This document shows, piece by piece, positions 14,875 to 33,192 of a stretch of 42,715 nt of DNA. Where the stretch lies: assembly GCA_009377535.1 (NCBI GenBank), contig WHTV01000027.1, positions 1 through 42,715 of the forward strand, written 5' to 3'. Position numbers and translations under genes: made by a program. The notes beneath the pieces are model-generated. The model made no database searches and was not told the DNA's origin. It worked only from the letters and a program-made list of their open reading frames with translations. This DNA is from Kiloniellaceae bacterium (GTDB lineage Bacteria > Pseudomonadota > Alphaproteobacteria > Kiloniellales > Kiloniellaceae). The number at the start of each line of letters is the position of its first letter. Positions within the stretch are counted from its first letter, which is position 1.

Positions 14875-17100
14875 CTACGCCGCGCTGCCGACCAGTTGCG
14901 AGAACTTGCCGTGTCCGCGCAGCGGATCGAGAGCCTGGTCCAGCGGCATCCAGGCGAGCAGGCGCTGGCGGAACACAGGCAGAGCGTCGAGCGCGCGTTC
15001 CAGCCATTCCAGCGCCAGCGTGGTGTTGCCCAGCAGCGCATGGGTGCGGCTGACGTTGTAGCGCACGAGATGGTCGTCGGGGCCGATGACGACGGCGCGG
15101 CTCGCCCACTCCTCGCCGCGCAGGCCTTCGCCCAACTCGACGAGCAGGGTGCTACCGAAGGCCCAGGCATCCGCATTCTCCGGATGGCACCTCACCTCAT
15201 CGGTCGCCTGGCGAAGCGAGCGTGACGCCGCCGACTTGAATTCGCGCTCGAAGCCGAGCGCCCGGTATTCCTCAGCCAGCAGGCCGGCGCAGCGGTAGTC
15301 GTGCGGCCGCAACTCGGCGGCGTTCTCGAACAGCGAAAGCGCCGGCTCGCGCTGGCCGAGCAGGCGGCAGCAGCGCGCCTTGAAGAAATGCGCCTCGAAC
15401 AGCGACGGATCGAGTCCCATCGCGTAGTCGAGCAGGCCGAGCGCTTCCTGATAGCGGCCGAGGACATAGAGCGCGAGGCCCTTGGTGGCGCGGGCCTCGC
15501 CCAGGCCAGGCGCCAACTCGATGGCGCGCTCGCTGGTGGCGAGCATGCCCGCGGTGGTGACGGCCGCATCGTTGCCGCACAGCGTGGTCTCGCAGGTCGC
15601 CCGCGCCGCGTGGGCGTAGAGCGGATCGATCTCAGTCGCCTTGGTGAAGAGATCGTGGGCGATGCGCAGGCTCCGCTTGTCGCAGCCGCGCAGATAGAAC
15701 GAGCGTCCGAGCAGGTAAAGCTGATAGGCCTCGACGCTGGCGGTCGGCCGGCCGGCGAGGCTCACCATCTCGTCGGGCAGCAGCTGCACGCGAAGCGCCT
15801 CTGCGATATCGCGGGACAGCGCCTCCTGCAGCCCGAAGATGTCCCTGACGTCGCGATCGTAGCGCCGTGCCCAGATGCAGCTGGCCGTCGCGCCCTCGAT
15901 CAGCTGGGCCGTTATCCTGATGCGGCCACCGAGCTTGCGCACGCTGCCCTCGAGAACATATGCCGTCCGCAGGCTGTGCGCGGCTTTCTGCGGGGAAGGG
16001 CGTTCGCGGGCGTCCTGCGCCCCGCGGTGCACGACCGTCAGCAGGCCCGAGAGTTGCGACAGGTCGGTGATGATGTCCTCCGTCAGACCTTCCGCGAAAT
16101 ACTCCTGCTCGGGATCGCGGCCTATGTTGAGGAAGGGCAGCACGGCGACAGACGGCGCAGCCGCGTCGACCGCGGCAGTCTCGTCGCGGGCGGTGGCGAC
16201 CACGCTGCGCTGGCGCTGTATTGCCTCGTAGGCGGCGAGCGTCGCCGGCTCCGGCCGGATGCCGAGATCGCGCGACAGGCGGCGGCGCAGCGACTCGTAG
16301 AGGGAGAGCGCCTGGGTGCTCTCTCCGCGGTCGGCGTGGATCTGCATCAGGGCGCGGCAGGCTCCCTCGTGGTGCGGATCGAGCAGCAGGAGCTGCCGGG
16401 CGATGGTGGCGGCGCGCTCGCGCTCGCGGGCGGATGTCGAGCGCAGTAGCGCTGCGGTCATGGCCTCCGTCGCCAGATGGCGCAGCCGTTGCCGCTCCAA
16501 GAGGAGCCATTCCTCGAAGCCGGCATCGGGAATCTCGATGCCCTCGAGGAAGTCGCCGCGGTAGAGGTCGATGGCTTTGTCGATCGCCGGCGATGTGCCT
16601 TCCTCCAGCAGCCGGCAGAAGTCGACCGCATCGACGGTGACGCAGGTCTCGTCGAGCTTCACCGACTGCCGGTCGGAGACGATCGCATCGGTGCCATGGC
16701 TGGAGAAGCTGCGGCGCAGGTGCCAGACGGCCTGCTTCAGGCTGTCGCGTGCCTGGCGGTCGCTGCGGTCTCCCCACAGCAGCGCCGCAATCCTGGAACG
16801 CGGCGTCGGGATGCCGAGCGTGGCAGCCAGGTAGCCCAGCAGCGCGCGCGCCTTGTGGCCGGCGACCGGGACCGCCGTCTTGCCGTCGCTCTGGACCTGC
16901 AGGCCGCCGAACAGGGTGACGGCGATGGAACGGCCATTCTCTTCGGCGACAGCGGCCGCGCCCGAAGGGGCTACCCCTGATGCGCCGGCGGTGCGAATTA
17001 ACGGAGTTTTCTTCCTCCCCGCCGGCGTCCTGCACCGACTGTGGCGGTCTCTGAACGCGCTTGTCCGGCGCCAGCCTTCATCGTAGGTCCTGCGGTTCAC
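14875..17100 (-). CDS. BTAD/TolB-like/TPR transcriptional regulator
   Basis: 741-aa protein with an N-terminal OmpR-type winged helix (about 58-140, LFGGLQVQSDGKTAVPVAGH) and a bacterial transcriptional activation domain of SARP type (about 150-290, SLYESLRRRLSRDLGIRPEP). Next come a TolB-like/adenylate-cyclase-associated domain (about 310-420, SVAVLPFLNIG and YVLEGSVRKLGGRIRITAQL) and TPR repeats to the end (about 450-740). It probably binds DNA and senses a partner through the TPRs; no cyclase domain is present. GTG 17100 is the only in-frame start far enough upstream and it has no good ribosome site, so the first about 50 residues are uncertain. Possibly co-transcribed with the MetE-like gene. 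Confidence 0.85.
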   Translation of the reverse strand: MNRRTYDEGWRRTSAFRDRHSRCRTPAGRKKTPLIRTAGASGVAPSGAAAVAEENGRSIAVTLFGGLQVQSDGKTAVPVAGHKARALLGYLAATLGIPTPRSRIAALLWGDRSDRQARDSLKQAVWHLRRSFSSHGTDAIVSDRQSVKLDETCVTVDAVDFCRLLEEGTSPAIDKAIDLYRGDFLEGIEIPDAGFEEWLLLERQRLRHLATEAMTAALLRSTSARERERAATIARQLLLLDPHHEGACRALMQIHADRGESTQALSLYESLRRRLSRDLGIRPEPATLAAYEAIQRQRSVVATARDETAAVDAAAPSVAVLPFLNIGRDPEQEYFAEGLTEDIITDLSQLSGLLTVVHRGAQDARERPSPQKAAHSLRTAYVLEGSVRKLGGRIRITAQLIEGATASCIWARRYDRDVRDIFGLQEALSRDIAEALRVQLLPDEMVSLAGRPTASVEAYQLYLLGRSFYLRGCDKRSLRIAHDLFTKATEIDPLYAHAARATCETTLCGNDAAVTTAGMLATSERAIELAPGLGEARATKGLALYVLGRYQEALGLLDYAMGLDPSLFEAHFFKARCCRLLGQREPALSLFENAAELRPHDYRCAGLLAEEYRALGFEREFKSAASRSLRQATDEVRCHPENADAWAFGSTLLVELGEGLRGEEWASRAVVIGPDDHLVRYNVSRTHALLGNTTLALEWLERALDALPVFRQRLLAWMPLDQALDPLRGHGKFSQLVGSAA

Positions 17101-17201: not shown

Positions 17202-17447
17202 ATGAGCGCCGGCGATGCCGTGGGCTGGCTGGCTGCCACGCTGACGCTGCTGGCCTTCCTGATGCGCTCGATGACCGCACTGCGGGTCGTCGCGATCGCG
17301 GCGAACCTCTGCTTCATCCTCTATGGCGCGATGAGCTGGGCCTATCCAATCCTGGTGCTGCACATCGCGCTGTTGCCGTGCAACGTCCTGCGCCTCTGCG
17401 AGCTGCGCCGCGCCGGCGACGGCCGGCCGGTGCCGCGCCGACTATAG
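17202..17447 (+). CDS. Small three-helix inner-membrane protein
   Basis: 81 aa, ATG 17202 with CGGAG 7 nt upstream. Three hydrophobic helices (VGWLAATLTLLAFLM, LRVVAIAANLCFILYGAM, YPILVLHIALLPCNVLRL). The pattern resembles the membrane part found in YgjV-like and Popeye-like proteins, where in some alphaproteobacteria it precedes a cyclic-nucleotide-binding domain. Here the protein ends right after the helices (RRAGDGRPVPRRL), so it is a stand-alone version. Its 3' end overlaps the end of the convergent deacetylase-fusion gene by 6 nt. Function unknown. Confidence 0.7.
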   Translation: MSAGDAVGWLAATLTLLAFLMRSMTALRVVAIAANLCFILYGAMSWAYPILVLHIALLPCNVLRLCELRRAGDGRPVPRRL

Positions 17448-19712
17448 CGCCTTGCTGTAGATCGCCTTGCCGTCGCCGGGGCGGTAGAAGTCGGGCAGCT
17501 CGGCAGCGAGGGTGAAGCCGGCGGCGGCGTAGAAGGCGCGGGTCGGCGTATAGCGCGCGCTGGTCGAGGTGTCGATGTAGACGCGCTGCGCGCCGCCGCG
17601 CTTCATGGCCGCCTCGGCGCGGGCCAGGATCTGGTGGCCGAAGCCGCGGCCCTGGCGGTCCGGGTGCACGGCGATCCAGTAGAGGTCGTGGCTGCTGGCC
17701 GAGCCGGGGATCGGCCCGTAGCAGGCATAGCCGACAAGGGTGCCGTCCTCCTCCAACAGGACGAACTCGTAGCCGGAGGCGCGGCCCCTGGCCACGCGCT
17801 CCTGTACCAGCTCCTCGGCAATGGCGATCTCCTCGGCGGAGAACATGCCGGTGGCGGCGACCAGGCTGCGCACACGCTCGCCGTCTTCCGGCTTTACCGC
17901 CTCGCGCCACAGCTGGCCCTTGGCAGCCGGCCGGCCCGCAGCCGTCTTGGCCAGGCGCGCCGAGCGCTTGGCGACGCTGCTGCCTTCCACCAGGCCCGTG
18001 AAGAAGTGGCGCGCGTTGAGGCCCAGGGTGCGGATGCGATAGCCGCCTTCCTGCACCACCACCGTGGGATAGCCGGCGGCGCCGATGAGGACGCCCATGC
18101 GGTGAAAGTCGGCGGCCCGGTTCGACCAGGTGCCGGTCGGATCGCCGCGTGCGGTGTCGAGTCCGAAGGCAACCACCAGGCGGGCCGGGTCGTGGCGGTC
18201 GATGCGCTTCAAGGCGGTTTGCAGGGCGTCCATGTACTGCTCCGGCGTGATGCTCTCCGGCAGCGGGATGTTGAGGTTGTAGCCGGCGCCCTTGCCGCGC
18301 CCGGACTCGTTGCGAAATCCGGTGAAGTAGGGATAGGCAAAGGCCGGCGCGCCGTGGATCGACACAGTCAGCACGTCGTCGCGCTCGTAGAAGATGTCCT
18401 GCTGGCCGTTGCCGTGGTGGTAGTCCACGTCCAGCATGGCGACTTTGCCGTAGTGCGACAGGAAGTTGGCGGCGATGGCAGCGTTGCTGAAGTAGCAGAA
18501 GCCGCCGAAGCTGCGCCGCTCGGCGTGGTGGCCGGGCGGGCGCACCAGGGCGTAGGCCAGCGGCGCGCCGTTCAGCACCTCCTCGGCGGCGGTCAGCGCG
18601 CAGTCGACGGCCTGGCGCGCGGCCGGGAAGGCGTTGCGGTTCAGCGGCGTGAAGGTGTCGATGCACCAGTAGCCGGCCAGCACCGAACGTTCTTTCGGCC
18701 GGCGATCCGGGTTGCGGATCGGGAAGACGTAAGGGTAGATCGACCGCTTCAGCGGGGCCTCGGCGCAGGCGTGCTGGATGTAGTCGACCAGGCCGGCATC
18801 GTGCACTTCGCGGATGAAGCGGTCGGGGAATTTGCGGGCCGGCAGGCGGCGGAAGAAATCGGTCTTGTCGAGCTCGCCGAGGATGGCGCTGACGCGCACC
18901 GGGGCCTCCACATAGCCGCGGTCGCGCACGTGATGGATGTCGTGCTTGTCGTTCACCACCAGGGCGACCTGCGGACGGCCGGAAGAGCCGGGCAGGGGCG
19001 CGGCGATCTGCTCGCTCTTCAGATAGCGCGGCGCGCGCAGGCGGTAGCTGTCCGGCCTCACTGAGGCCACCACCTTCTCGACGTAGTCCGGCGGGCAGAC
19101 GCCGGCGTAGTTGCGTTCCAGGATGGCGCGCACGATGCGACGCAGGCGGGCGGCCGAGGGCAAGGCGTGGCGGCCGAGGCCGTCGAACACCAGGTAGGGC
19201 ATGTCGGTGTCGCCCGGCGTGATCGGCAGGTCGTAGGCGATGCCCTCGATGGGGAAGGCGCCGTAGCGCTCGTAGAACTTCAGGCGCTGGGCGTTCTGCC
19301 GGCGCAGCTTGGGGTCGGGGCTCTTGGCCGCCTCGTCGGGCAGGCATTCGTAGTAGAGGCCGGCTGCGCCCAGGCTCTCCGCCTCCTCGCGCACCCGGTC
19401 GTAGAGTGCGCCGCCGATGCCGCTGCCGGCGCGACCGCCGGGGGCGATGGAGATGACCTCCAGATAGGAGAAGGCAAGATCGGGATCGTGCAGCAGCAGA
19501 GCGAGCGCCTTCACCCGACCGCGCGCGTCCTCTGCCGCCAGAAGTGTGGCGATGAAGCGATACCTGAAGGGGTTGTCCAACTGGTCGGGCAGCTTGGCCA
19601 CCTCGCCGCCCTGCATGCCGGGGAACTGGGCACGGATGATGGCCTGGGCTTCCTCCACGGCCGAGCGGTTGGCCGGGGTGTGGCTGTCGGAGATCTTGCG
19701 TATGCGCAGCAT
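17442..19712 (-). CDS. GNAT-deacetylase-GNAT three-domain fusion
   Basis: 756-aa cytosolic fusion. Residues about 1-170 form a GNAT acetyltransferase; its acetyl-CoA loop is AGSGIG, lacking the usual first Gln/Arg. Residues about 230-590 form a histone-deacetylase/acetylpolyamine-amidohydrolase domain with every catalytic mark: GHH (about 392), GFCYFSN, DVDYHHGNG (about 427), FGLDTARGDP (about 518) and GGY (about 555). Residues about 605-756 form a second GNAT with a canonical RQGRGFG loop (about 688). Opposing acetylating and deacetylating activities sit in one chain. The ATG directly abuts the stop of the upstream ATP-grasp gene, the fourth member of the KamA operon. Likely substrate: the operon's own beta-lysine product (inference). 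Confidence 0.9.
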   Translation of the reverse strand: MLRIRKISDSHTPANRSAVEEAQAIIRAQFPGMQGGEVAKLPDQLDNPFRYRFIATLLAAEDARGRVKALALLLHDPDLAFSYLEVISIAPGGRAGSGIGGALYDRVREEAESLGAAGLYYECLPDEAAKSPDPKLRRQNAQRLKFYERYGAFPIEGIAYDLPITPGDTDMPYLVFDGLGRHALPSAARLRRIVRAILERNYAGVCPPDYVEKVVASVRPDSYRLRAPRYLKSEQIAAPLPGSSGRPQVALVVNDKHDIHHVRDRGYVEAPVRVSAILGELDKTDFFRRLPARKFPDRFIREVHDAGLVDYIQHACAEAPLKRSIYPYVFPIRNPDRRPKERSVLAGYWCIDTFTPLNRNAFPAARQAVDCALTAAEEVLNGAPLAYALVRPPGHHAERRSFGGFCYFSNAAIAANFLSHYGKVAMLDVDYHHGNGQQDIFYERDDVLTVSIHGAPAFAYPYFTGFRNESGRGKGAGYNLNIPLPESITPEQYMDALQTALKRIDRHDPARLVVAFGLDTARGDPTGTWSNRAADFHRMGVLIGAAGYPTVVVQEGGYRIRTLGLNARHFFTGLVEGSSVAKRSARLAKTAAGRPAAKGQLWREAVKPEDGERVRSLVAATGMFSAEEIAIAEELVQERVARGRASGYEFVLLEEDGTLVGYACYGPIPGSASSHDLYWIAVHPDRQGRGFGHQILARAEAAMKRGGAQRVYIDTSTSARYTPTRAFYAAAGFTLAAELPDFYRPGDGKAIYSKAL

Positions 19713-20696
19713 TCAGGCAGCGACCTGTCGGCGTCCCTTGGCGGCTGCGACGATGCTGCCGATGACGGCGTCGTAGTCAAGGCCGGTGCGCGCCGCCGCG
19801 GCGACGAAGCCGGCGTCCGGCGCCAGGCAGGGATTGAGATTGACCTCCAGGATGGTCGGGCGGCCGGCGCCGTCGACGCGAAAGTCGACGCGAGCATAGC
19901 CGGCGAGGCCGAATTGCCGCCAGGCCGCCAGCGCCAGCGTGCTCAACTCGGCGATGAGCGCGGCGTCGCCGGCCGCGAAGTCGAAGCTGCGCGGCGTGTT
20001 GGCGTAAGCGACGCTGTCGGTTGCCCACTTGGCTTCATAGTCGACGATGCGCGGCCGCTCCGACGGGAAGTCGACGAAGAGGATTTCGGCAGCCGGCAGC
20101 ACGCTCGGGCCCGTGGCAGTCTCGAGGATCGAAAGGTTGAACTCGCGCCCCTCGACGTAGGCCTCGGCGAAGAACAGCCCGCCGAAGCGTTGCTCGCGGG
20201 CGGCGATCTCCCGCCGCGCCTCGGCGGCCGGCACCACGGAAGCGGCATCGAGCCCCAGCGAGGCGTGCTCGGTGTCGGACTTCACGATGACGCGGGCGTC
20301 CGGCGCGAAGCCGGCGCCGTCGGGCGACCAGGCCGGCGTCGGCAGTCCGGCCGCGGCCAGCAGGCGCTTGGCGGCGGTCTTGGTGAGGGTCAGGTGGTGC
20401 GCCGCCAGGCCGCTGCCGGTGTAGGGCAGGGCGAAGTGGTCGAGCGCGGCCGGGGCGAGTTGCGCCAGGGCCGAGTCGCCCTCCAAGGCCTCGACCAGGT
20501 TGAACACCAGGGTCGGGCGTTCGGCGGCGAGCTGCGCCAGGACAGAGAGGTCGAGGCCAAGCTTCACGACCTCGCTGTCATGGCCGAGGCGCTGCAGGGA
20601 GGCCGCGATGGCCTCTGCCGTGACGATGGTGTCCGCCTCGTCCGGGCGATCTGCCGCTGCCCCGTGCAGGACCGGCAGATAGCTGGACCGGATCAT
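19713..20696 (-). CDS. ATP-grasp ligase B (D-Ala-D-Ala-ligase fold)
   Basis: 327-aa ATP-grasp carboxylate-amine ligase that would form an amide bond through an acyl phosphate. Seen: substrate-side motif LVFNLVEALEGDSALAQ, an ATP-binding Lys in RVIVKSDTEHASLGLDAASV, a Glu-rich ATP clamp (FFAEAYVEGREFNLSIL), and the metal-binding end ARVDFRVD...TILEVNLNP. The acceptor region after the EVN motif (NPCLAPDAGF) differs from that of true D-Ala-D-Ala ligases, so the acceptor is probably not D-Ala. Its ATG overlaps the stop of ligase A by 4 nt, and its stop abuts the ATG of the GNAT-deacetylase fusion. Confidence 0.9.
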   Translation of the reverse strand: MIRSSYLPVLHGAAADRPDEADTIVTAEAIAASLQRLGHDSEVVKLGLDLSVLAQLAAERPTLVFNLVEALEGDSALAQLAPAALDHFALPYTGSGLAAHHLTLTKTAAKRLLAAAGLPTPAWSPDGAGFAPDARVIVKSDTEHASLGLDAASVVPAAEARREIAAREQRFGGLFFAEAYVEGREFNLSILETATGPSVLPAAEILFVDFPSERPRIVDYEAKWATDSVAYANTPRSFDFAAGDAALIAELSTLALAAWRQFGLAGYARVDFRVDGAGRPTILEVNLNPCLAPDAGFVAAAARTGLDYDAVIGSIVAAAKGRRQVAA

Positions 20697-21712
20697 GCCG
20701 GGATGCGCCGCCGTCGCTTGGACTGCACCAGACCGACGCCGGTGCGCAGCTTGGCCGCCTGCAGGATCTCCCCGATCAGCGTCTCGTAGCTCATGCCGGA
20801 CAGGCTGGCCAGGATCGGCAGGTCGGAGTGGGTCGGGTGCAGGCCGGCCAGCGGGTTGACCTCGAGGAACTGCGGCACGCCGCCGGCGTCCGAGCGCAGA
20901 TCGAGGCGCGCGCCATCGCGGCAGCCCAGCGTGCGGTAGGCGGCCAGCGCGGTGGCGCCGGCGGCCCGGGCTTCCGCATCGTCGGCCAGATGGTATTCCA
21001 CGCGCGACTCGCAGAGTTCCTTGTTCTCGAAGGAATAGACGTCCGGCTCAGCGTTCTGCAGCAGCACGATCTCGAGCACCGCGATGATGCGCGCCGCGGC
21101 GGCGTTGCCGACGACGCCGACGGTGAACTCGCGGCCCGGCAGGAAGGGCTCGGCGATGGCCGGCTGATTGAAGCGGGCGCGCAGGGAGCGCGCCGCCGAA
21201 AGCAGCGCCTTGCGGTCGCTAGCCTTGGAGGCCCGCTCGCAGCCCTTGCCGGTCCCCTCGGCCAGCGGCTTCACGAAGACCGGGAAGGCCAGGCTGCAGG
21301 CCCTGGCATCGGCGTCGTTCTCGATCACCGAGAAAGGCGCCGTGGGCAAGCCGGCGTCGCGCACCAGGCGCTTGGCGACGGCCTTGTCCAGCGTGACCGA
21401 GAGGGTCAGCGGGTCGGAGAAGACGTAGGAAATGTTGTAGGCCTCGAGCAGCGCCGGCACCTGGGCCTCGCGGTTGCGCCCGGCGACGCCCTCGCAGATG
21501 TTGAACACCAGGTCCCAGCTCTCGCCGGCGACCAGCCGGCTGGCGAGGCTGCGGATGTGGCCGATACGCTCGACCCGGCAGCCGTTGGCTGCGAGGGCCT
21601 GCTCGAGGGCGTCGATGGTTTCCGGCGAATCGAATTCGGCCAGGGCGTCTTCCGAGAAGCCGCCGAGGGCGCGGTAGTCGTCGCGCAGGTCGTAGGTCAG
21701 GCCGACACGCAT
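20693..21712 (-). CDS. ATP-grasp ligase A (D-Ala-D-Ala-ligase fold)
   Basis: 339-aa ATP-grasp ligase, start MRVGLTYDLRDDYRALGG. Marks: LVFNICEGVAGRNREAQVP, the ATP lysine in FPVFVKPLAEGTGKGCERAS, IAEPFLPGREFTVGV, and the metal-binding ARLDLRSD...FLEVNPLAGLHPTHSDLP, whose end is close to the D-Ala-D-Ala ligase consensus. It is clearly related to but well diverged from ligase B, so the two probably act on different acceptors in sequence. Its ATG overlaps the kamA stop by one base (TGATG). A role in peptidoglycan is unlikely given its partners. Confidence 0.9.
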   Translation of the reverse strand: MRVGLTYDLRDDYRALGGFSEDALAEFDSPETIDALEQALAANGCRVERIGHIRSLASRLVAGESWDLVFNICEGVAGRNREAQVPALLEAYNISYVFSDPLTLSVTLDKAVAKRLVRDAGLPTAPFSVIENDADARACSLAFPVFVKPLAEGTGKGCERASKASDRKALLSAARSLRARFNQPAIAEPFLPGREFTVGVVGNAAAARIIAVLEIVLLQNAEPDVYSFENKELCESRVEYHLADDAEARAAGATALAAYRTLGCRDGARLDLRSDAGGVPQFLEVNPLAGLHPTHSDLPILASLSGMSYETLIGEILQAAKLRTGVGLVQSKRRRRIPA

Positions 21713-23064
21713 CAGCGGGCCCCCTTCTTCCTGCCGGCGCCGGGTTTGTCGGCACCGGTGCGCCCGCCCGGGTCGGGGTAGCGGTAGACGCCGCCTTCGA
21801 AGTTGCGCAGCAGCAGGTCGTCGCCGTCGCGCCCCACGATGTAGTCGGGCAGCAGGGGGATCTTGCCGCCGCCGTTGGGGGCGTCGATCACGTACTGCGG
21901 GACGGCATAGCCGGTGGTGTGGCCGCGCAGGCCCTCGATGATCTCGATGCCCTTCTCGACCGGCGTGCGGAAGTGCGAGGAGCCGGTGATCGGATCGCAC
22001 TGGTAGAGGTAGTAGGGCTTCACCCGGCGCATCAGCAGGCCGTGCATCATGGCCTTCATGGTATCGACCGAGTCGTTGATGCCTTTCAGCAGCACCGTCT
22101 GGCTGCCCAGCGGGATGCCGGCGTCGGCCAGGCGGGTGTAGGCCTCCGTTGCTTCCGGGGTCAGTTCCTTGGGATGGGTGACGTGGATGCTCATCCACAC
22201 CGGGTGGTGCTTGCGCAGCATGCGGACGAGCGAGCGGGTGATCCGCATCGGCAACACGGTCGGCACCTTGGAGCCGAGGCGGATGAACTCGACGTGCTTG
22301 ATCCGGCGCAGCCGGCCGAGCAGGTAGTCGAGCTTCTCGTCGGCGATGGTCAGCGGGTCGCCGCCCGACAGCAGCACGTCGCGGACCTCCGTATGCGCCT
22401 CGATGTAGGTCAGGGCCTGTTCCCACTGGCTGGTGGAGAACTGATACTCGCCGCCGGCCTCGCCCACCATGCGCGAGCGGGTGCAGTAGCGGCAGTAGGT
22501 CGAGCAGAAGCCGGTGGTGAGGAACAGCACCCGGTCCGGATAGCGGTGCACCAGGCCCGGCGTCTTGGTGTCGTGGTCCTCGCCCAGGGGGTCGTCCGCT
22601 TCGCCCGGCGTGCGCAGGTACTCCTGGCCGACGGGAATGTGCGTCCGACGCAGAGGCTCCTCGGCATCGTCGCGGCTCATCAGGCTGGCGTAGTAGGGCG
22701 TGATGCCGACCGGCAGGGATCCCTTGTGGCGGGCCACAGCGGCGTACTCGTCCGGCGACAGCTGGAAAATCCGCTCCAGCTCAGCCAGCGAGCGGATGCG
22801 ATTGCGCAGCTGCCAGCGCCAGTCGTTCCATTCCTCCGGCGTGGCCGCGGGGAAGAAGCGGCGCCGGAAGGCGCGGGCCTCCGGTCCCTGCGGGAAGCGC
22901 TCCGTCCGCTGCCGCGCCTCGAAGGTCCGCGCCAGCAGGCTCTCCGCCGGGCGCAATGCAGGCGACCAGGAAGACGAGTTCAGTGCTTTTGATTTGAGGG
23001 GAGTGGAAGTCGGTTCGGTCTCCGAACCGGGAGGCTCCGAAGGGGGAGCCTGAAGATCGTCCAT
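21712..23064 (-). CDS. kamA: KamA-family lysine 2,3-aminomutase (radical SAM)
   Basis: Converts L-lysine to beta-lysine using a 4Fe-4S cluster, S-adenosylmethionine and PLP. 450 aa from ATG 23064. The cluster motif is CSTYCRYC (Cys187, Cys191, Cys194). The PLP lysine is Lys401 in DAPNGGGKIP. Residues that hold lysine in the Clostridium enzyme are kept: Arg196 (for Arg134), Asp357 (for Asp293) and Asp394 (for Asp330), with identical spacing between the last two and the PLP lysine. This favours true lysine aminomutase activity. The N-terminal 80 residues are low-complexity, Pro/Ser-rich and atypical. An upstream GTG at 23127 is less likely. First gene of the four-gene operon. Confidence 0.92.
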   Translation of the reverse strand: MDDLQAPPSEPPGSETEPTSTPLKSKALNSSSWSPALRPAESLLARTFEARQRTERFPQGPEARAFRRRFFPAATPEEWNDWRWQLRNRIRSLAELERIFQLSPDEYAAVARHKGSLPVGITPYYASLMSRDDAEEPLRRTHIPVGQEYLRTPGEADDPLGEDHDTKTPGLVHRYPDRVLFLTTGFCSTYCRYCTRSRMVGEAGGEYQFSTSQWEQALTYIEAHTEVRDVLLSGGDPLTIADEKLDYLLGRLRRIKHVEFIRLGSKVPTVLPMRITRSLVRMLRKHHPVWMSIHVTHPKELTPEATEAYTRLADAGIPLGSQTVLLKGINDSVDTMKAMMHGLLMRRVKPYYLYQCDPITGSSHFRTPVEKGIEIIEGLRGHTTGYAVPQYVIDAPNGGGKIPLLPDYIVGRDGDDLLLRNFEGGVYRYPDPGGRTGADKPGAGRKKGAR

Positions 23065-24302: not shown

Positions 24303-24911
24303 TTACTCCCGCGCGAAGCCGGCCGTCTTGTCCTTCAGTGCCGCGATGAGCGCGTCGATGCCGAGCTTGTCGATGATGCCGTTGTATTCGGAGCGGCGCG
24401 TGGCGAGTTCCGAGTAGGCGCCGCCGAGGATGGTGTCGACGATGCGCCAGTTCCCCGCGCCGTTCTCCGGGCGTGTCAGATAGTTGATCGCTACGGTCTC
24501 GCCATTGCCTTTCACGATCCGGTTCTGCACCAGCACCGTGCCGCGCCGGGCCGGCTGCTCACCAAGGATTTCGAATTTCTCGCCGTCGAAGCCGTCGAAG
24601 CGGTCGGCGAAGACGCCGATGCTGTAGTCCGCGAAGGCCTGCGTGAACGCCTGTTTCTGGGCCATGCTGATGGAGCTCCAGTGGCCGCCGACGACGATCT
24701 GCGCCATGGCCGCGAAGTCGAAGGTCTCCCGCAGCACCGGCGCCAGCTTCTCGTAGCGGCCGCTGTAGCCGAGCGCTTCGGCGCCCTTCATCGTCTCGAG
24801 CAGGGTGGCGTTCAGCCGCTCGACCGTTGCGGTTGGCGTCTCGGCGGCCTGCGCGGGCGCCGGGGCGGCAAGCAGCAGGCAGGCGAGGGCGAAGGCACTG
24901 AGGCGGGACAT
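24303..24911 (-). CDS. hpnM: HpnM, hopanoid-associated MlaC/Ttg2D-like protein
   Basis: Periplasmic lipid-binding protein of the toluene-tolerance/MlaC family, thought to help move hopanoids or other lipids to the outer membrane. 202 aa. The signal peptide ends at PAQA (MSRLSAFALACLLLAAPAPAQA). Family marks: FDFAAMAQIVVGGHW, FADYSIGVFADRFDGFDGE, WRIVDTILGGAYSELATRRSEY. I prefer the ATG at 24911, which has AGAAGGG about 6 nt upstream, over the ATG at 24917. Divergent from hpnA with an 88-bp gap that must hold both promoters. Confidence 0.88.
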   Translation of the reverse strand: MSRLSAFALACLLLAAPAPAQAAETPTATVERLNATLLETMKGAEALGYSGRYEKLAPVLRETFDFAAMAQIVVGGHWSSISMAQKQAFTQAFADYSIGVFADRFDGFDGEKFEILGEQPARRGTVLVQNRIVKGNGETVAINYLTRPENGAGNWRIVDTILGGAYSELATRRSEYNGIIDKLGIDALIAALKDKTAGFARE

Positions 24912-24999
24912 CGTCATCCCTTCTGATGTACGGCACGGCCATCCCGGTGCAAGGAATTTGTCGTTTGCGGCCACTCCGGGGCGGGCGCAAGCTGCCTAC

Positions 25000-25992
25000 A
25001 TGAGTGTTCTCGTCACTGGAGGCACAGGCTTCGTCGGCTCGGCGGTCGTGCGCGCGCTCATCGCCCAGGGCGAGCGGCCGCGATGCCTGGTGCGCTGTGG
25101 CAGCGACCGGCGCAATCTGGCCGGCCTCGACGTCGAGCTTGTCGAGGGCGACCTTAGCCGGGAGGACTCCCTGGAGGCCGCGCTCAAGGGCTGCACGGCG
25201 CTGTTCCATGTCGCCGCCGACTACCGCATCTGGGCGCGCCGGCCGGAAGACCTCATCCGCACCAACGTCGAGGGAACCCGCCGCCTGATGATGGCGGCGC
25301 TGCGCCACGGCGTTGAGCGGGTTGTCCACACCTCCTCGGTTGCCGTCCTCGGCAAGTTGGGCAACGGGGAGCCGGCCGACGAGGCGACGGCGGTCTGCCT
25401 GGGCGACATGATCGGCGCCTACAAGCGCTCGAAGTTTCTCGCCGAGGAGGAGGTGCGCCGGCTGCAGCGCGAGGAAGGCCTGCCGGTGGTGATCGTCAAT
25501 CCCTCGACGCCCTTCGGGCCGCGTGACGTGAAGCCGACGCCGACCGGGCGCCTGGTGGTCGCGGCGGCGGCCGGGCGGATGCCCGCCTTCGTCGATACCG
25601 GCCTCAACGTGGTCCACGTCGACGATGTCGCCGCCGGGCACCTGCTGGCCTTCGAGAAGGGCAAGCTCGGCGAGCGCTACCTGCTGAGGGGTGAGAACCT
25701 CGGCCTTGCCGAGATCCTCGGCCAGGTGGCGGCGCTGCGCGGGCGCCGGGCGCCGCGCCTGCGCTTGCCGCGCCGACCGCTGTTCCCCCTCGCCGTGGCA
25801 GCCCAGGCCTGGGCGCGGGCGACCGGCGGGCGCAAGCCGATGCTGACCGTCGAGGGGCTCCGGATGGCCGCCCGGCCGATGTACTTCCGCCACGACAAGG
25901 CGGCCCGGGACCTCGGCTACCGGCCGCGCCCGGCGGCGGAGGCGATCGCCGACGCGGTCGGATGGTTCGAGCGCGAGGGCTATCTCTCCTGA
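25000..25992 (+). CDS. hpnA: HpnA, hopanoid-associated sugar epimerase
   Basis: Extended short-chain dehydrogenase/epimerase, 330 aa from ATG 25000. N-terminal Rossmann site VLVTGGTGFVGSAVV, catalytic Ser (HTSSVAVLG) and a YKRSKFLAE motif in the usual Tyr-x-x-x-Lys position. Its family is tied to hopanoid loci and is thought to act on the polar head group (sugar) of extended hopanoids. A stretch typical of the family follows (NPSTPFGPRDVKPTPTGRL). First gene of the plus-strand hpnA-hpnH pair. Confidence 0.92.
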   Translation: MSVLVTGGTGFVGSAVVRALIAQGERPRCLVRCGSDRRNLAGLDVELVEGDLSREDSLEAALKGCTALFHVAADYRIWARRPEDLIRTNVEGTRRLMMAALRHGVERVVHTSSVAVLGKLGNGEPADEATAVCLGDMIGAYKRSKFLAEEEVRRLQREEGLPVVIVNPSTPFGPRDVKPTPTGRLVVAAAAGRMPAFVDTGLNVVHVDDVAAGHLLAFEKGKLGERYLLRGENLGLAEILGQVAALRGRRAPRLRLPRRPLFPLAVAAQAWARATGGRKPMLTVEGLRMAARPMYFRHDKAARDLGYRPRPAAEAIADAVGWFEREGYLS

Positions 25993-26027
25993 GGCGCTGG
26001 CGCGCCGGCCCCCAAATCCCCACAGAC

Positions 26028-26106
26028 TGTAGGGTGGTGTTGCGCCGCAAAATCGTTAGACTGGGCGCCGGACAGGGGGTCCCCCCAAAGCACCCGTTCC
26101 CCTACA
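26028..26106 (+). other. hpnA-hpnH intergenic region with a 7-bp inverted repeat
   Basis: The 132-bp gap between hpnA and hpnH contains TGTAGGG (26028-26034) and CCCTACA (26100-26106), plus a compact GGGGGTCCCCC. They could form a leader hairpin just before the hpnH ribosome site, but the stem is short and the spacing wide, so this is weak. Confidence 0.25.
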
Positions 26107-26124
26107 CCCTCTCGGAGAGGCATC

Positions 26125-27264
26125 TTGGCTGTACCCTTGATTCAACAGTTGCGCGTCGGCGCCTACATCATGAAGCAGCGCCTCCGCGGCAACAGCCGCT
26201 ACCCGCTGGTCCTCATGCTGGAGCCGCTGTTCCGCTGCAACCTCGCCTGTCCCGGCTGCGGCAAGATCGACTATCCCGAGGAGATCCTGAACCGCCGCCT
26301 CTCGGTCGCCGAGTGCATCGAGGCGGCGGAGGAAAGCGGCGCGCCGATCGTGTCGATTCCGGGCGGCGAGCCGCTGATCCACAAGGAGATGCCGCAGATC
26401 GTGGCCGAGCTGGTGAAGCGCAAGCGCTTCGTCTACCTCTGCACCAACGCCCTGCTGCTGGAAAAGAAGATCGACCTCTTCAAGCCCAGCAAGTACCTGA
26501 CTTTCTCCATTCACCTGGACGGGCTGGAGGAAGAACACGACCGTGCGGTCGACCAGAAGGGCGTGTTCAAGCGCGCCGTGAGGGCCATCGAGCTGGCGCG
26601 CGACCGCGGCTTCCGGGTCAACGTGAACTGCACCCTCTTCAACAACGCCAAGCCCGAGGAGGTCGCCAAGTACCTCGACTTCGCGCGGGACCTCGGCGTC
26701 GAGGGCGTCACCATCTCGCCGGGCTACGCCTACGAGCGCGCGCCCGACCAGCAGCATTTCCTCAGCCGGCGCCAGACCAAGGAGCTGTTCCGCGACGTCT
26801 TCCGACGCGGCAAGGGCCGCAAGTGGCGCTTCTCCCAGTCCAGCCTCTTCCTCGATTTCCTCGCCGGCAACCAGACCTACGAGTGCACGCCGTGGAGCAA
26901 TCCGACGCGCAACGTCTTCGGCTGGCAACGGCCCTGCTACCTGCTGAACGAGGGCTATGCGCCGAGCTTTCAGGCGCTGATGGCGGAGACCGAGTGGGAG
27001 AGCTACGGCACCGGCAACTACGAGAAGTGCGCCAACTGCATGGTCCACTGCGGCTACGAGGGCACCGCCGTGGCCGACACCGTGGCCAATCCGCTGAAGG
27101 CGCTGAAGGTGGCGCTCGCCGGCGTCGGCACGGAAGGCGAGATGGCTCCGGAACTCGACCTCAGCCGGCAGCGTCCGGCGGTCTACGCCTTCGAGGACTT
27201 CGTCGCCGAGGCGATGAACCAGAAGCCGGCCAGCGGCACCTCGCCCTCAGAAGCCGCCGAATAG
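26125..27264 (+). CDS. hpnH: HpnH, adenosylhopane-forming radical SAM enzyme
   Basis: Radical SAM enzyme that attaches the 5'-deoxyadenosyl group to diploptene, giving adenosylhopane, the first step to C35 hopanoids. 379 aa. The cluster motif is CNLACPGC (Cys38, Cys42, Cys45); the PGGEPLIHKEMP motif follows, and a C-terminal Cys-rich part (EKCANCMVHCGYEG) is kept. TTG start at 26125 with GGAGAGG about 5 nt upstream. Its last 18 nt overlap the last 18 nt of the convergent hpnG, whose product acts next in the pathway. Confidence 0.95.
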   Translation: MAVPLIQQLRVGAYIMKQRLRGNSRYPLVLMLEPLFRCNLACPGCGKIDYPEEILNRRLSVAECIEAAEESGAPIVSIPGGEPLIHKEMPQIVAELVKRKRFVYLCTNALLLEKKIDLFKPSKYLTFSIHLDGLEEEHDRAVDQKGVFKRAVRAIELARDRGFRVNVNCTLFNNAKPEEVAKYLDFARDLGVEGVTISPGYAYERAPDQQHFLSRRQTKELFRDVFRRGKGRKWRFSQSSLFLDFLAGNQTYECTPWSNPTRNVFGWQRPCYLLNEGYAPSFQALMAETEWESYGTGNYEKCANCMVHCGYEGTAVADTVANPLKALKVALAGVGTEGEMAPELDLSRQRPAVYAFEDFVAEAMNQKPASGTSPSEAAE

Positions 27265-27948
27265 CGCGTCCTTCACCGCTTCCAGCGTCCGCAGGCGGGC
27301 CAGCGCCAGCTCGCTCTGGCGCGCCAGCCTGAGCGCGGCAGGGATTTCCGACGGGCGCCTGGCCAGGGCCGCGAGGGCGCGGCCGATGGCCGGCCGGCCA
27401 TCGGGCTTCAGGGCATTCTCCACCAGGGACGGCAGGCTGTCCTGGGCCCGGTCGGCAATGGCGCGCACGGCAAGGAACGCCAGTCCAGCCTCGGCCGCGA
27501 TGGCCCCGACCGCGCCGGATTCCATGTCGACCGCCAGGCAGCCGGTGGTACCGAAGAGGACTTCCTTGTCGTCCGGCGCCCGCCACAGCCGCTTGCTGCC
27601 CAGGATCAGGCCGTGGCGGCACGGCAGCCGCACTTCGGCCAGAGCGCTGCGGACCGCTTCCTGCCAGTCGGAGTCGCAGGCGTAGCAGTCGGCATCGTCG
27701 GTCAGCACGTCCTTCGCCACGACCAGATCGCCGCTCTCGAGCCTCGGATCGAGGGCCCCGGCGATGCCGAAGCTGATAAGCGCGTTGACGCCGGCGTCGA
27801 CCAGCCGGCGGGCCAGCACGGCGGCGCGGGCGGCACTGGCGCCGGCGCAGACCACACGCACGCTGCTGACATCTTCCCCCAAGAGGCCGTCCACAACGGC
27901 GGCCTCCGAGGCGAGCCCGGTGACGACGCCGACCCTGGGAGAGCCCAC
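27247..27948 (-). CDS. hpnG: HpnG, hopanoid-associated nucleoside phosphorylase
   Basis: Purine-nucleoside-phosphorylase-like enzyme that removes adenine from adenosylhopane to give ribosylhopane or its phosphate. 233 aa from GTG 27948, 4 nt after the shc stop. Marks: VVTGLASEAAVVDG, SFGIAGALDPRL, CLAVDMESGAVGAIA and VRAIADRAQDSLP, the last two forming the ribose and base pocket. End gene of the hpnBCDE-shc-hpnG unit; its 3' end overlaps hpnH on the opposite strand. Confidence 0.92.
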   Translation of the reverse strand: MGSPRVGVVTGLASEAAVVDGLLGEDVSSVRVVCAGASAARAAVLARRLVDAGVNALISFGIAGALDPRLESGDLVVAKDVLTDDADCYACDSDWQEAVRSALAEVRLPCRHGLILGSKRLWRAPDDKEVLFGTTGCLAVDMESGAVGAIAAEAGLAFLAVRAIADRAQDSLPSLVENALKPDGRPAIGRALAALARRPSEIPAALRLARQSELALARLRTLEAVKDALFGGF

Positions 27949-27952
27949 GGGC

Positions 27953-29938
27953 CTACATGCCGTAGCTGACGCGCCGCTCGTTGCTTTGCATCAGGTTGCG
28001 GTAGCGCGCCAGGGCCCAGAGCGGGAAGTAGGCGCTGTAGCCATGGTATTTCAGGTAGAACACCCGCGGGAAGCCGGTGCCGGTCCAGTAGTCCTCGGCC
28101 CAGCGCGCGCCCTGGCGCGGCTGCTGCTGCAGGAAGGCGATGCCGCGGCGCACGGCGTCGCTCTCGACCTCGCCGGCGGCCATCAGTCCGAGCAGCGCCC
28201 AGGCGGTCTGCGAAGCGGTCGAGGACTTCGTCTCGGCGCGCCGCTCGCTCCAGTAGGTGGCGCAGTCCTCGCCCCAGCCGCCGTCGGGCAGCTGGCGGCG
28301 TTGCAACCAGGCCACCGCCTTGCGGATGTGCGGTGCCACCATGTCCTCGCCGCAGGCGTTGAAGGCGGCGAGCGCGGACCAGGTCCCGTAGACGTAGTTG
28401 ACGCCCCAACGCCCGTACCAGGAGCCGTCGGCTTCCTGCTCGCGGCGCAGGTAGTCGAGGCCCCGGCGCACCACGGTGTGGTCGCGCCCGTAGCCGAGCT
28501 GGGCCAGCATGGAAAGGCAGCGCGCCGAGACGTCGGCCGTGGGCGGATCGAGCAGCGCGCCGTGGTCGGCGAAGGGGATGTGGTTCAGATACTGGAAGGC
28601 ATTGTCGGCGTCGAAGGCACCCCAGCCGCCGTTCCTGCTCTGCATGGCGATGACCCACTTGGTCGCGCGCTCGATCGCCGGCTTGCAGGCTTCAGAGCCG
28701 GCGCGGTTCATCGCCAACACCACCACGGCGGTGTCGTCGACGTCCGGATAGTGGGCGTTGTTGTACTGGAAGGGCCAGCCGCCGACCGGCGCCTCGGCGC
28801 GCCGCCAGGCCCAGTCGCCACGCACCTCGGTGATCTCGCGGCCCAAGAGCCAGTCGAAGGCGCGGCTGATGCTGTCGCTGTCGACCGGCACATCGGCCTC
28901 CAGCATGGCATGGGCGGCGAGGCAGGTGTCCCAGATCGGCGACAGGCAGGGCTGGCAGGTGACGGTGTGCTCATCGCGCGCGAAGAGCAGGCGGTCGATC
29001 GCCTCGCGGGTCAGGCGGTAGTCGGGGTCCTCCCAGTCGTAGCCCAGCACGTGGAAGGCCATGGCGGCAATGGCCATGGCCGGAAAGATGCCGCCGAGGC
29101 CGTCTTCGCCGTTCAGGCGCTCCTTCACGAAGTCCATGGCCGCGTTGATCGCCTTCTGGCGCTTGGCGCGCGGACGCAGCGGGTCGCTGAAGCGCAGCAC
29201 CCGGTCGATGCCGGCGAAGATGGCGCCGAGCGGGCTGCCGCTGGCATTCATGTTGTAGATTTCGCGCGCCGGGTCCCCGCGGAACAGCTCGCGGACGGAG
29301 ATGCCGCGCGGGTTGGCCGCCTGCGGTTTCCTGTCCATGACCACCAGCAGCGGCGCGATCACCGTGCGCGACCAGTAGGACATCTTGGAGAGGTGGAAGG
29401 GGAACCAGCGCGGCAGCAGCATGATCTCGACCGGCATCTCCGGCACCGCGCGCCAGGGCACCTGGCCGAAGAGGGCGAGCGCGATGCGGGTGAAGACGTT
29501 GCTCTGCGCGGCACCGCCAGCGTCGAGGATGGCCTCGCGGGCGCGCTGCATGTGCGGCGCCTCCGGGTCGTCGCCGGCCAGCTTCAGGGCGAAGTAGGCC
29601 TTCACGCTGGCGCTGATGTCCAGATCGCCGTCGTAGAACAGCGGCCAGCCGCCGTGGCGGCCCTGGATGGCGCGCAGGTGGTTGGCGATCTTGGGCTCGA
29701 TCTCGCGGAACCGCGGCGTGTCGACCTGGCCGAGGAAGTGCTGCAGAAAGATGTATTCGGCCGGGATGGTGGCATCGGCCTCCAGCTCGAACAGCCAGTG
29801 GCCGTCCGGGCGCTGTTCGGCCTTCAGCGCGCTTCGCATCTCACCGACCAGGGCATCGACGGCGTCGAGGTCGGGAAGCGGAGCGGCGACAGGTACGGGA
29901 GGAACGTCTCGATCTCTGGCTACGGTACTGCTTGTCAT
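27953..29938 (-). CDS. shc: Squalene-hopene cyclase
   Basis: Membrane-associated class II terpene cyclase that folds squalene into hopene and hopanol. 661 aa, normal length for the family. The catalytic acid motif reads YPDVDDTAVVVLAM (near residue 398). Several QW-type repeats are visible (GHWLFELEADATIPAEYIFL, GGWGAFDADN, ADGSWYGRWGVNYVYGTW, GGWGEDCATYW). The ATG at 29938 lacks an obvious Shine-Dalgarno. It is separated from hpnE by 169 bp, more than the other junctions in the unit, so a promoter of its own is possible. Confidence 0.96.
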   Translation of the reverse strand: MTSSTVARDRDVPPVPVAAPLPDLDAVDALVGEMRSALKAEQRPDGHWLFELEADATIPAEYIFLQHFLGQVDTPRFREIEPKIANHLRAIQGRHGGWPLFYDGDLDISASVKAYFALKLAGDDPEAPHMQRAREAILDAGGAAQSNVFTRIALALFGQVPWRAVPEMPVEIMLLPRWFPFHLSKMSYWSRTVIAPLLVVMDRKPQAANPRGISVRELFRGDPAREIYNMNASGSPLGAIFAGIDRVLRFSDPLRPRAKRQKAINAAMDFVKERLNGEDGLGGIFPAMAIAAMAFHVLGYDWEDPDYRLTREAIDRLLFARDEHTVTCQPCLSPIWDTCLAAHAMLEADVPVDSDSISRAFDWLLGREITEVRGDWAWRRAEAPVGGWPFQYNNAHYPDVDDTAVVVLAMNRAGSEACKPAIERATKWVIAMQSRNGGWGAFDADNAFQYLNHIPFADHGALLDPPTADVSARCLSMLAQLGYGRDHTVVRRGLDYLRREQEADGSWYGRWGVNYVYGTWSALAAFNACGEDMVAPHIRKAVAWLQRRQLPDGGWGEDCATYWSERRAETKSSTASQTAWALLGLMAAGEVESDAVRRGIAFLQQQPRQGARWAEDYWTGTGFPRVFYLKYHGYSAYFPLWALARYRNLMQSNERRVSYGM

Positions 29939-30018
29939 CTGATTATTGCGGGCAAGGCCTCATGAAGTGGATGAAATATCCCTGGCGACTTTCCTCAAAC
30001 GTCTCCTGCTCCCTGAGA

Positions 30019-30049
30019 CCCCGCCTTCGAATCAGCGGTTTGAGCGGGG
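30019..30049 (-). other. Stem-loop between hpnE and shc
   Basis: CCCCGC and GCGGGG form a perfect 6-bp GC stem with a 19-nt loop in the longest gap of the hpn unit. There is no T-run on the minus strand. It could set differential mRNA levels of hpnBCDE and shc-hpnG; this is inference only. Confidence 0.3.
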
Positions 30050-30107
30050 ATTCTGACCAAGCAGGTGGGCTCTGGCAAGCTCTGCCTGCCGCGCAAAGGA
30101 GGCGGCA

Positions 30108-31391: not shown

Positions 31392-31394
31392 CAC

Positions 31395-32276
31395 TCAGAG
31401 CCCGTTCCTCAGCGCGATCCAGAGCTTTTCCGCCTTGGCCAGGCGGACCTCCTCGGTCACGTCGGCCCAGCCGCGCTGCTGCAGGCGGGTCAGCAGACGG
31501 CGGTAGATCGCCAGCATGATCCGGGCCGGGCGCATCGGGCCGCGCCGGCAGTGGGCCATCAGGCGCTCGGCCTCGGCGAAGCGCTCCTGTGCCAGGGCAG
31601 CGAGGTCGCGGCAGACGCCGGCAAGGCGCGGGTCGCGCAGCACGGCCAGGGGATCGTCGGAATCGATGCCGTGGCGCTGCAGCAGCTCGCGCGGCAGGTA
31701 GAGGCGCCCGCGTTCGGCGTCCTCGGCGACGTCGCGCAGGATGTTGGTGAACTGCAGCGCGTCGCCCTCGGCCAGGGCGAGGGCTTGCGCTTCCGGTTCC
31801 GTCGCGCCGAAGGCCTGCACAGAGAGCACCCCGACGGCGCCGGCGACGCGGCGGCAGTAGAGCCTGAAATCGGCCATGGCGGGCGCGCGGATGTCCTCGC
31901 GCGCATCCATTTCCATGCCGTCGATCACGGCGAGGAACTCGTCCTGGGGCAGGGCGTAGTCCTGCACCGGCCCGAGCAGGGCCTGGGCGGTCGGGCGGCT
32001 TGGACAGCCGGCGTAGAGGCGGTCGATCTCCTCGCGCCAGGCGGCGAGCGCGCGCTGCTTGTCCGCCGGGCTGCCGCCCTCGTCGGCGATGTCGTCGACC
32101 TCGCGGCAGAAGGCGTAGATGGCGTACATCGCCTCACGGCGCGGGCGCGGCAGCAGGCGCATGCCCCAGAGGAAGGAGGAGCCGGAGCGGGTGGCGACGG
32201 CGTGCACGTGGACCCGGGCGGCGGCGATAGCGTCCGGCGGCAGTGCCGGGCGGGCGAGGGCGGCGGGCGAGGTCAT
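31395..32276 (-). CDS. hpnD: HpnD, presqualene diphosphate synthase
   Basis: Trans-prenyltransferase of the squalene/phytoene synthase fold that condenses two farnesyl diphosphates to presqualene diphosphate. 293 aa. Metal-binding Asp motifs are present: FCREVDDIADEGG and NILRDVAEDAERGRLYLP. Its ATG overlaps the hpnC stop by 4 nt, so translation is coupled. Distinguished from HpnC by gene order and by the YAIYAFCREVDDIAD pattern. Confidence 0.94.
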   Translation of the reverse strand: MTSPAALARPALPPDAIAAARVHVHAVATRSGSSFLWGMRLLPRPRREAMYAIYAFCREVDDIADEGGSPADKQRALAAWREEIDRLYAGCPSRPTAQALLGPVQDYALPQDEFLAVIDGMEMDAREDIRAPAMADFRLYCRRVAGAVGVLSVQAFGATEPEAQALALAEGDALQFTNILRDVAEDAERGRLYLPRELLQRHGIDSDDPLAVLRDPRLAGVCRDLAALAQERFAEAERLMAHCRRGPMRPARIMLAIYRRLLTRLQQRGWADVTEEVRLAKAEKLWIALRNGL

Positions 32277-33157: not shown

Positions 33158-33192
33158 CAGCCTCAATCATATCCGAGCAGGGATGCGGGGGC

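Follow-up and report, generated by a model that had tools for sequence, protein, structure and literature searches.

What does a bacterium make with a lysine aminomutase, two ATP-grasp ligases and an acetyltransferase-deacetylase fusion encoded side by side? The question is raised by a four-gene cassette on the minus strand of contig WHTV01000027.1 (assembly GCA_009377535.1) of a Kiloniellaceae bacterium, which we analysed within a window of 42,715 nt (positions 1 to 42,715, the whole stretch of DNA studied). The genes encode KamA, a radical SAM enzyme of the lysine 2,3-aminomutase type; LigA and LigB, two ligases resembling D-alanine-D-alanine ligase (Ddl); and a fusion protein in which a deacetylase domain is set between two GNAT acetyltransferase domains, GNAT1 and GNAT2. 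An earlier, sequence-only reading of this DNA had described four minus-strand genes with junctions of 1, 4 and 0 nt, and this was borne out: all four reading frames are open at the coordinates tabulated below, KamA and LigA overlap by 1 nt (TGATG), LigA and LigB overlap by 4 nt (ATGA), and the ATG of the fusion comes straight after the LigB stop codon. Gene identity, residue conservation, linkage, modularity and distribution were all established computationally, and the cassette is real, conserved, modular and built from known kinds of enzyme. On balance we favour the view that it is a self-contained biosynthetic unit that would maintain a cytoplasmic pool of acetylated beta-lysine di- or tripeptides; the outline of the pathway is moderately likely.

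KamA contains the Pfam domains Radical_SAM and LAM_C, the latter matched only at positions 1-58 of 127. It exceeds the cut-off of TIGR00238, the model for KamA family radical SAM proteins (337.9 vs 199.2 bits), and lies under those for AblA (TIGR03820; 473.5 vs 525.4 bits, with the match stopping at position 362 of 417), EpmB (TIGR03821; 250.8 vs 369.3 bits) and the glutamate and arginine models. Residues were compared in 96 of 98 cassette KamAs, those shorter than 300 aa being left out. The CxxxCxxC motif is kept in 96/96, as are the equivalents of Arg134, Asp293, Asp330 and Lys337 in 2A5H numbering. In the solved enzyme 2A5H, Asp293 and Asp330 bind the side-chain amine of lysine and Arg134 the carboxylate, while Lys337 is the lysine that carries pyridoxal phosphate (PLP). 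Judged by these residues, lysine is the best-supported candidate for the KamA substrate. In a tree, 93 of the 96 cassette KamAs fall in one clade together with six lone KamAs, and no split between cassette and lone KamAs was seen.

Both ligases belong to the Dala_Dala_lig_C family (PF07478; 87.8 for LigA and 62.0 for LigB vs a gathering score of 24), and both miss the cut-off of 245.65 for the D-Ala-D-Ala ligase model TIGR01205, with 116.7 and 76.2 bits. They are below the cut-offs of every Ddl and Van model listed, which for LigA means the best 25 of 46. The genome's own Ddl, at 270.2 bits to TIGR01205, is on another contig and adjoins frames that we read as MurB- and FtsQ-like; given this separate true Ddl, a housekeeping Ddl function of LigA or LigB was rejected. 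Alignment of 42 LigAs and 37 LigBs to the genome's Ddl showed that the Lys, Asp, Glu and Asn positions of the ATP/Mg type are kept in both ligases, except that the Glu is found in 35/37 LigBs. LigA also retains the first-substrate Glu (E26), the Arg (R269) and the carboxylate Ser (S296), each in 42/42. At the position of the Ddl Tyr it mostly has Glu (34/42), the residue after the clamp Ser is Asp in place of Leu (41/42), and the loop Ser is Thr in 35/42 and Ser in 7/42. In LigB the Tyr position is occupied by Trp throughout (37/37) and the loop Ser is replaced by Ala in 33/37; the clamp Ser, too, has usually become Ala (29/37), and 6 LigBs keep Ser there. The Glu of what we take to be the Glu-Ser-Tyr active-site set of Ddl is found in 29/37 LigBs, and the set is incomplete in LigA and LigB alike. 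In Ddl, the residues equivalent to R269 and S296 clamp the acceptor carboxylate. We infer from this pattern that the LigA product would be a dipeptide whose carboxylate stays free. The extra acidic residues of LigA (Glu for Tyr, Asp for Leu) would suit an amine-bearing substrate, and the changed clamp of LigB suggests a different acceptor. LigA is probably the beta-lysine ligase, because KamA-LigA can occur without LigB.

In the fusion, Hist_deacetyl is matched at residues 268-572 (E 2.3e-68) and a clear C-terminal GNAT at residues 645-734. The N-terminal GNAT of the window protein is under the Pfam cut-off (E 0.014); however, GNAT models are matched at E<=1 by all 17 relatives that were scanned, the strongest match having E 5.8e-7, so that the sequence-only call of a GNAT at this end is probably right. 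The GNAT1 profile also gives weak GNAT matches in the PDB (best E 0.0036). The GNAT2 family profile matches the solved structure 2r7h at E 8e-58, and the fusion has no match to the AblB model TIGR03827 at E<=0.01. The closest PDB relatives of the deacetylase are the acetylpolyamine amidohydrolases 9gkz, 6phr and 3q9b. Its His-His pair, three Zn ligands and Tyr are kept in 21/21 rows, as is the GxG of GNAT1. The earlier statement that the catalytic motifs are intact therefore holds where checked: in KamA, in the deacetylase and GNAT1, and at the ATP/Mg positions of the ligases with the partial exception of the LigB Glu. Beta-lysine bears an aminopropyl group similar to that of acetylspermidine and, because of this group and the likeness of the deacetylase to acetylpolyamine amidohydrolases, the domain could plausibly act on an acetylated beta-lysine compound.

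Linkage was scored in the best 80 loci from a LigA-profile scan of named species genomes; these are the nearest relatives of the query, and most are metagenome bins, in which binning errors are possible. Of the 77 loci that could be judged for KamA, 74 have it no more than 2.5 kb upstream of LigA; LigB is found downstream, at up to 3 kb, in 68/75 (L130 being counted as LigB-bearing from its coordinates, despite a flag from a 60-nt overlap rule), GNAT2 is downstream in 57/65, and the deacetylase part is present in 19/59. All six LigA loci without an adjacent KamA come from genomes with a KamA elsewhere: three are planctomycetotal (L096, L113, L120; KamA at 51-62% identity) and three are cut at a contig end (44-58% identity). 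Five loci have KamA-LigA without LigB. The genomes of two of them (L078, L102) carry LigB elsewhere, and those of the other three (L082, L089, L118) gave LigA/Ddl-level scores only, with no LigB-level match anywhere. The unlinked LigB in the genome of L096 (locus L189) directly adjoins GNAT2, and that in the genome of L102 (locus L186) has a partial GNAT2 about 1.3 kb off, at the locus edge. LigB-GNAT2 is on the strand opposite KamA-LigA in L061, six loci (L091, L100, L113, L138, L050, L039) encode LigB and GNAT2 as a single protein, and GNAT1-deacetylase is a separate gene after GNAT2 in L092, L098 and L099. The parts thus move as modules: a KamA-LigA core, a LigB-GNAT2 extension and an optional GNAT1-deacetylase. 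What had been called a four-gene operon is one form of a modular cassette. Over the 57 of 106 loci in which all three proteins are near full length, pairwise distances are correlated for KamA-LigA (0.38), KamA-LigB (0.50) and LigA-LigB (0.57), with 0/999 shuffles reaching each value; the GNAT2-LigA correlation is weaker (0.32, 5/999 shuffles, 34 loci).

The distribution of the cassette is patchy near the window and broad beyond it. At E<=1e-60, KamA was found in none of 7 other genomes of the genus, none of 15 others of the family and 1/35 of the order. The sequence-only reading would have been refuted had the four genes not co-occurred in related genomes; outside the genus and family, where no other genome has this KamA, they do recur together broadly. 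A KamA match at E<=1e-100 was obtained in 40 of the 384 other genomes of the class; in 29 of them the identity is 67-78%, and 22 of these 29 carry LigA and LigB behind KamA. The remaining seven close KamAs comprise six lone genes and one at a contig end. Eleven class genomes have a distant KamA (47-60%), of which 10 were examined (G306 was left out): LigA, LigB and GNAT adjoin KamA in two (L061, L063), and in G245 LigA, LigB and GNAT2 are grouped on a contig other than that of KamA. In a sample of the phylum, LigA is present in 18/397 other genomes, with KamA visible in the short flanks of 16/18 and LigB in those of 9/18. The best 80 loci carry the titles Alphaproteobacteria, Syntrophaceae, other Syntrophobacterales, Desulfobacteraceae, Desulfobulbaceae, other 'Deltaproteobacteria', Magnetococcales and Nitrococcus, and further Planctomycetota, WOR-3, Acidobacteria, Spirochaetales, Bacteroidetes, Fibrobacteres, Sumerlaeota and Goldiibacteriota; among those titled as strains are Desulfocarbo indianensis SCBM (L087) and Desulfopila sp. 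IMCC35006 (L099). The arrangement is not due to chance, because it recurs in distant taxa. Carriage on a plasmid or phage was rejected, LigA having no match at E<=1e-40 or at E<=1e-20.

In the scheme that follows we infer every substrate, the order of LigB and GNAT2, and the role of the cassette. KamA would convert L-lysine to beta-lysine, and LigA would use ATP to join beta-lysine to an ordinary amino acid, giving a dipeptide with a free carboxylate. LigB would add a further residue or a cap. GNAT2 would then acetylate a free amine, probably the one that ends the beta-lysine side chain, to give a compound of low charge, and GNAT1-deacetylase, where present, would re-set the acetylation state. 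The sequence-only proposal of a single pathway that starts from beta-lysine, forms amide bonds with the ligases and ends in acetylation is in this way partly supported, as the likeliest outline from linkage and residues. A stress or compatible solute pool appears the likeliest role, because of the analogy with N-epsilon-acetyl-beta-lysine, the lack of a recurrent exporter and one MscS gene behind a cassette (L145). More tentatively, and with rather less confidence than doubt, we suggest that acetyl-switchable beta-lysine di- or tripeptides could be an unrecognised kind of primary-type metabolite, widespread in many phyla, that serves in the cytoplasm as a solute or as a pool of cations of tunable charge. 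They would be the work of a portable KamA-LigA core onto which LigB-GNAT2, GNAT1-deacetylase and CxxCxxCC modules are clipped.

Several results weigh against this scheme or against the solute role assigned to it. Ligase substrates are not predictable from sequence here, and the KamA-LigA distance correlation is modest. The seven class genomes with a close KamA and no LigA behind it have no LigA-level match, but at most a Ddl-level one (up to 120 bits), two of these genomes being 63% and 86% complete. KamA may serve elongation factor P (EF-P) as well in many cassette genomes, because EpmA (TIGR00462) is over its cut-off in 21 of the 31 tested (these are the window's genome, G050, 22 class genomes and, from the phylum sample, 7 of the 18 with LigA). 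An Rfam scan of the window and 19 loci (20 sources) at the gathering score found tRNAs alone and no riboswitch. Ectoine synthase is present in 1/22 cassette genomes vs 5/54 without the cassette (p 0.67), and a link to this salt marker was rejected. Finally, in L114 (9541-10974) the last part of GNAT2 is overlapped by a gene on the same strand for a Mur ligase of the Mpl type, which scores 409.9 bits vs a cut-off of 388.7.

This last gene favours, at that locus, the first of four rival explanations, in which LigA and LigB would make a beta-lysine dipeptide for a cell wall precursor or bridge, in the manner of Ddl and Van enzymes. Both ligases are Ddl-like, the presence of a Ddl proper in the cell would make them specialised copies, and membrane (hopanoid) genes are found beside the window's cassette. 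However, key Ddl pocket residues are altered in both ligases, the 25 commonest neighbour families include no Mur ligase, genes for acetylation and deacetylation would not be expected, and the window's hopanoid genes have no cluster in common with the 41 other loci compared. We regard this envelope or peptidoglycan route as unlikely. Also improbable is a polyamine-like role, in which GNAT and deacetylase would adjust the charge of cationic beta-lysine oligopeptides, much as acetylation does for polyamines. The acetylpolyamine amidohydrolases nearest to the deacetylase and the aminopropyl group noted above are in keeping with it, but the deacetylase part is confined to a minority of testable loci, and no polyamine family is among the 25 commonest neighbour families.

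The third rival, that KamA mainly supplies beta-lysine to EF-P through EpmA and that the ligases are a side branch, draws on the frequency of EpmA in cassette genomes and on its association with KamA. Among other genomes of the class, EpmA is over the cut-off in 16/17 with KamA at E<=1e-100 vs 17/54 without, a difference (p 7e-6) that ignores kinship and in which weaker EpmB-type matches in the 54 are missed. The 17th KamA genome has a partial EpmA match; three of the 17 (G245, G416, G125) also have LigA. Lone KamAs are therefore usually accompanied by EpmA. Against this, EpmA was not found in the window's genome (91% complete) or in 9 other cassette genomes, and EpmAB as the sole use of KamA in the window's genome was rejected. 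In the 24 alphaproteobacterial cassette genomes, EpmA is present in 1/7 with GNAT1-deacetylase vs 13/17 without (p 0.009, uncorrected), and KamA is tied to LigA by gene order. That the window's cassette stands without EpmA argues that its KamA would work for LigA, and as a general account the EF-P route seems to us quite unlikely. AblB (TIGR03827) was found in 0/31 cassette genomes, the window's included, with three control genomes positive, and the AblAB pathway was rejected. The contrast with AblAB and EpmAB drawn by the sequence-only reading thus stands for AblB and for the window's own genome, but in the many cassette genomes that do have EpmA, KamA could also feed EF-P. The last rival, a secreted natural product (an antibiotic, for instance, or part of a siderophore), is very unlikely. 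In its favour, beta-lysine occurs in streptothricin-type products, the GNAT1 profile has non-significant matches to two streptothricin/nourseothricin acetyltransferases, 3pp9 (E 0.06) and 5c82 (E 0.26), and a membrane protein is encoded next to the cassette at each of three loci (of the lactate-permease type in L030, YitT in L072 and MarC in L102). However, these three belong to different families, no nonribosomal peptide synthetase, carrier-protein or exporter family is among the 25 commonest neighbour families, and the cassette is spread very wide.

Coordinates of the cassette genes and fusion domains in the window
Feature	Coordinates	Strand	Length	Remarks
KamA (lysine 2,3-aminomutase type; radical SAM, PLP)	21712..23064	minus	450 aa	short C-terminus compared with AblA
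LigA, Ddl-like ATP-grasp ligase	20693..21712	minus	339 aa	usual partner of KamA; proposed beta-lysine ligase
LigB, second Ddl-like ATP-grasp ligase	19713..20696	minus	327 aa	proposed extender or capper of the LigA product
GNAT-deacetylase-GNAT fusion	17442..19712	minus	756 aa	
GNAT1 domain	19143..19712	minus		fusion residues 1-190; divergent acetyltransferase fold
Deacetylase domain	17943..19142	minus		acetylpolyamine amidohydrolase / class II histone deacetylase type
GNAT2 domain	17442..17942	minus		2r7h family

The sequence-only reading had suggested a search for a conserved fifth gene, and among the neighbours of the cassette loci no general one was found. Neighbour genes were called with simple scripts, which include false frames, and families were built from 116 proteins; 150 of the 255 had been sampled, and most of these were used after some had been dropped by hand. 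The commonest families are response regulators and sigma-54 activators, with 5-6 members each (best 25 of 134). The nearest to a recurrent addition is a CxxCxxCC-type protein in 10/106 LigA loci. Its gene separates KamA from LigA in six of these loci, follows LigB in three and comes after GNAT2 in L080. Proteins of this PF03692 type were noted in L121, L125, L133, L137, L141 and L147, in L036, L044, L046 and L080, and in L179. One is also encoded behind the unlinked KamA of G799, a genome whose LigA-LigB (L120) is elsewhere. PF03692 is matched at E<=1e-4 by 5 of the 116 neighbour proteins; 8 of the 116 are of the CxxCxxCC type, three of them added by hand, so that the family count is not an unbiased rate. 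Passages of PMC8598068 compare the cysteine motif of FliB, a [4Fe-4S] lysine methyltransferase, with PF03692, and because of this comparison methylation of the cassette product is a thought, no more.

Same-strand neighbours within 120 nt number 21, in 17 loci. The MscS-type channel gene of L145 (11322-12404) is directly behind the fusion on the same strand, and the lactate-permease-type gene of L030 (5543-7216) is between LigA and LigB. Neighbours seen at single loci are the MarC transporter of L102, the YitT membrane protein of L072 and a 1-deoxy-D-xylulose 5-phosphate reductoisomerase in L120; L106 has a nucleotidyltransferase with a CDP-alcohol phosphatidyltransferase domain. In the window, a divergent zinc alcohol dehydrogenase gene is upstream of the cassette. 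Beyond it is a hopanoid cluster at 24303-34377 encoding an MlaC-like protein, HpnA, HpnH, squalene-hopene cyclase, HpnE, HpnD and HpnB; the listed start of HpnA at 24805 is probably too far upstream, as the match starts at residue 66. Downstream of the cassette end at 17442, on the same strand, is a frame for a BTAD and TPR regulator (14875-17100). The window also has an MscS-type mechanosensitive channel gene (6575-8962), 8.5 kb off on the opposite strand, which we did not count as evidence. In another cassette-bearing alphaproteobacterium, G361, one contig has eight tandem ectoine-synthase (PF06339) matches in three open frames (C81:35-3343), and there is one more on C101.

In full-text searches aimed at such an operon, no title or abstract opening among the matches listed describes the cassette. 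A 2009 survey of ATP-grasp amidoligase operons may already list it. If the proposed pathway is correct, a beta-amino-acid peptide metabolite has been overlooked in many uncultured and anaerobic lineages, because the ligases resemble cell wall Ddl enzymes and the deacetylase resembles histone deacetylase. Such a pathway would be a further route to a solute (or to a polyamine-like compound), give free beta-lysine a use other than EF-P or AblB, and suggest a function for the solved structure 2r7h.

How does the cassette compare with systems already described? Passages of PMC11201294 and PMC13422317 name lysine aminomutase and acetyltransferase genes as compatible-solute genes, and in PMC11201294 ablA and ablB are said to adjoin a mechanosensitive channel gene. 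Like AblA and AblB, the cassette pairs a KamA-type aminomutase that has the lysine residues with a GNAT; unlike them, it has two ATP-grasp ligases in between and no AblB, and its KamA lacks the C-terminal part of AblA and is below the AblA cut-off. In L057 (8131-10250), from a genome without a LigA-level match, a lone KamA is closely followed by a gene for a GNAT2-like protein (36% identity); this is possibly an AblAB-like pair with a different acetyltransferase. The proposed feeding of a ligase by a KamA-type enzyme recalls EpmB, EpmA and EF-P, but the cassette ligases are Ddl-like ATP-grasp enzymes rather than GenX, and KamA is below the EpmB cut-off. With the Ddl and Van D-Ala ligases, LigA and LigB share the family and the ATP/Mg-type residues; they differ in that the Tyr is mostly Glu in LigA or Trp in LigB and the clamp Ser is mostly Ala in LigB. 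The deacetylase has the Zn and catalytic residues of acetylpolyamine amidohydrolases, but sits between two GNATs in an operon with KamA and the ligases. The structure 2r7h belongs to the same family as GNAT2; its title, 'putative D-alanine N-acetyltransferase', is the depositor's name, given perhaps from a Ddl-like neighbour gene. Similar in outline to the cassette is the route to the osmolyte N-acetylglutaminylglutamine amide (NAGGN), in which a GNAT and an ATP-grasp enzyme make an acetylated dipeptide solute. There the N-acetylglutaminylglutamine (NAGG) synthetase is a fused GNAT/ATP-grasp protein with an asparagine-synthase-like partner, and the route is not known to have an aminomutase. 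Asparagine-synthase, in contrast, is not among the 25 commonest neighbour families at the cassette loci.

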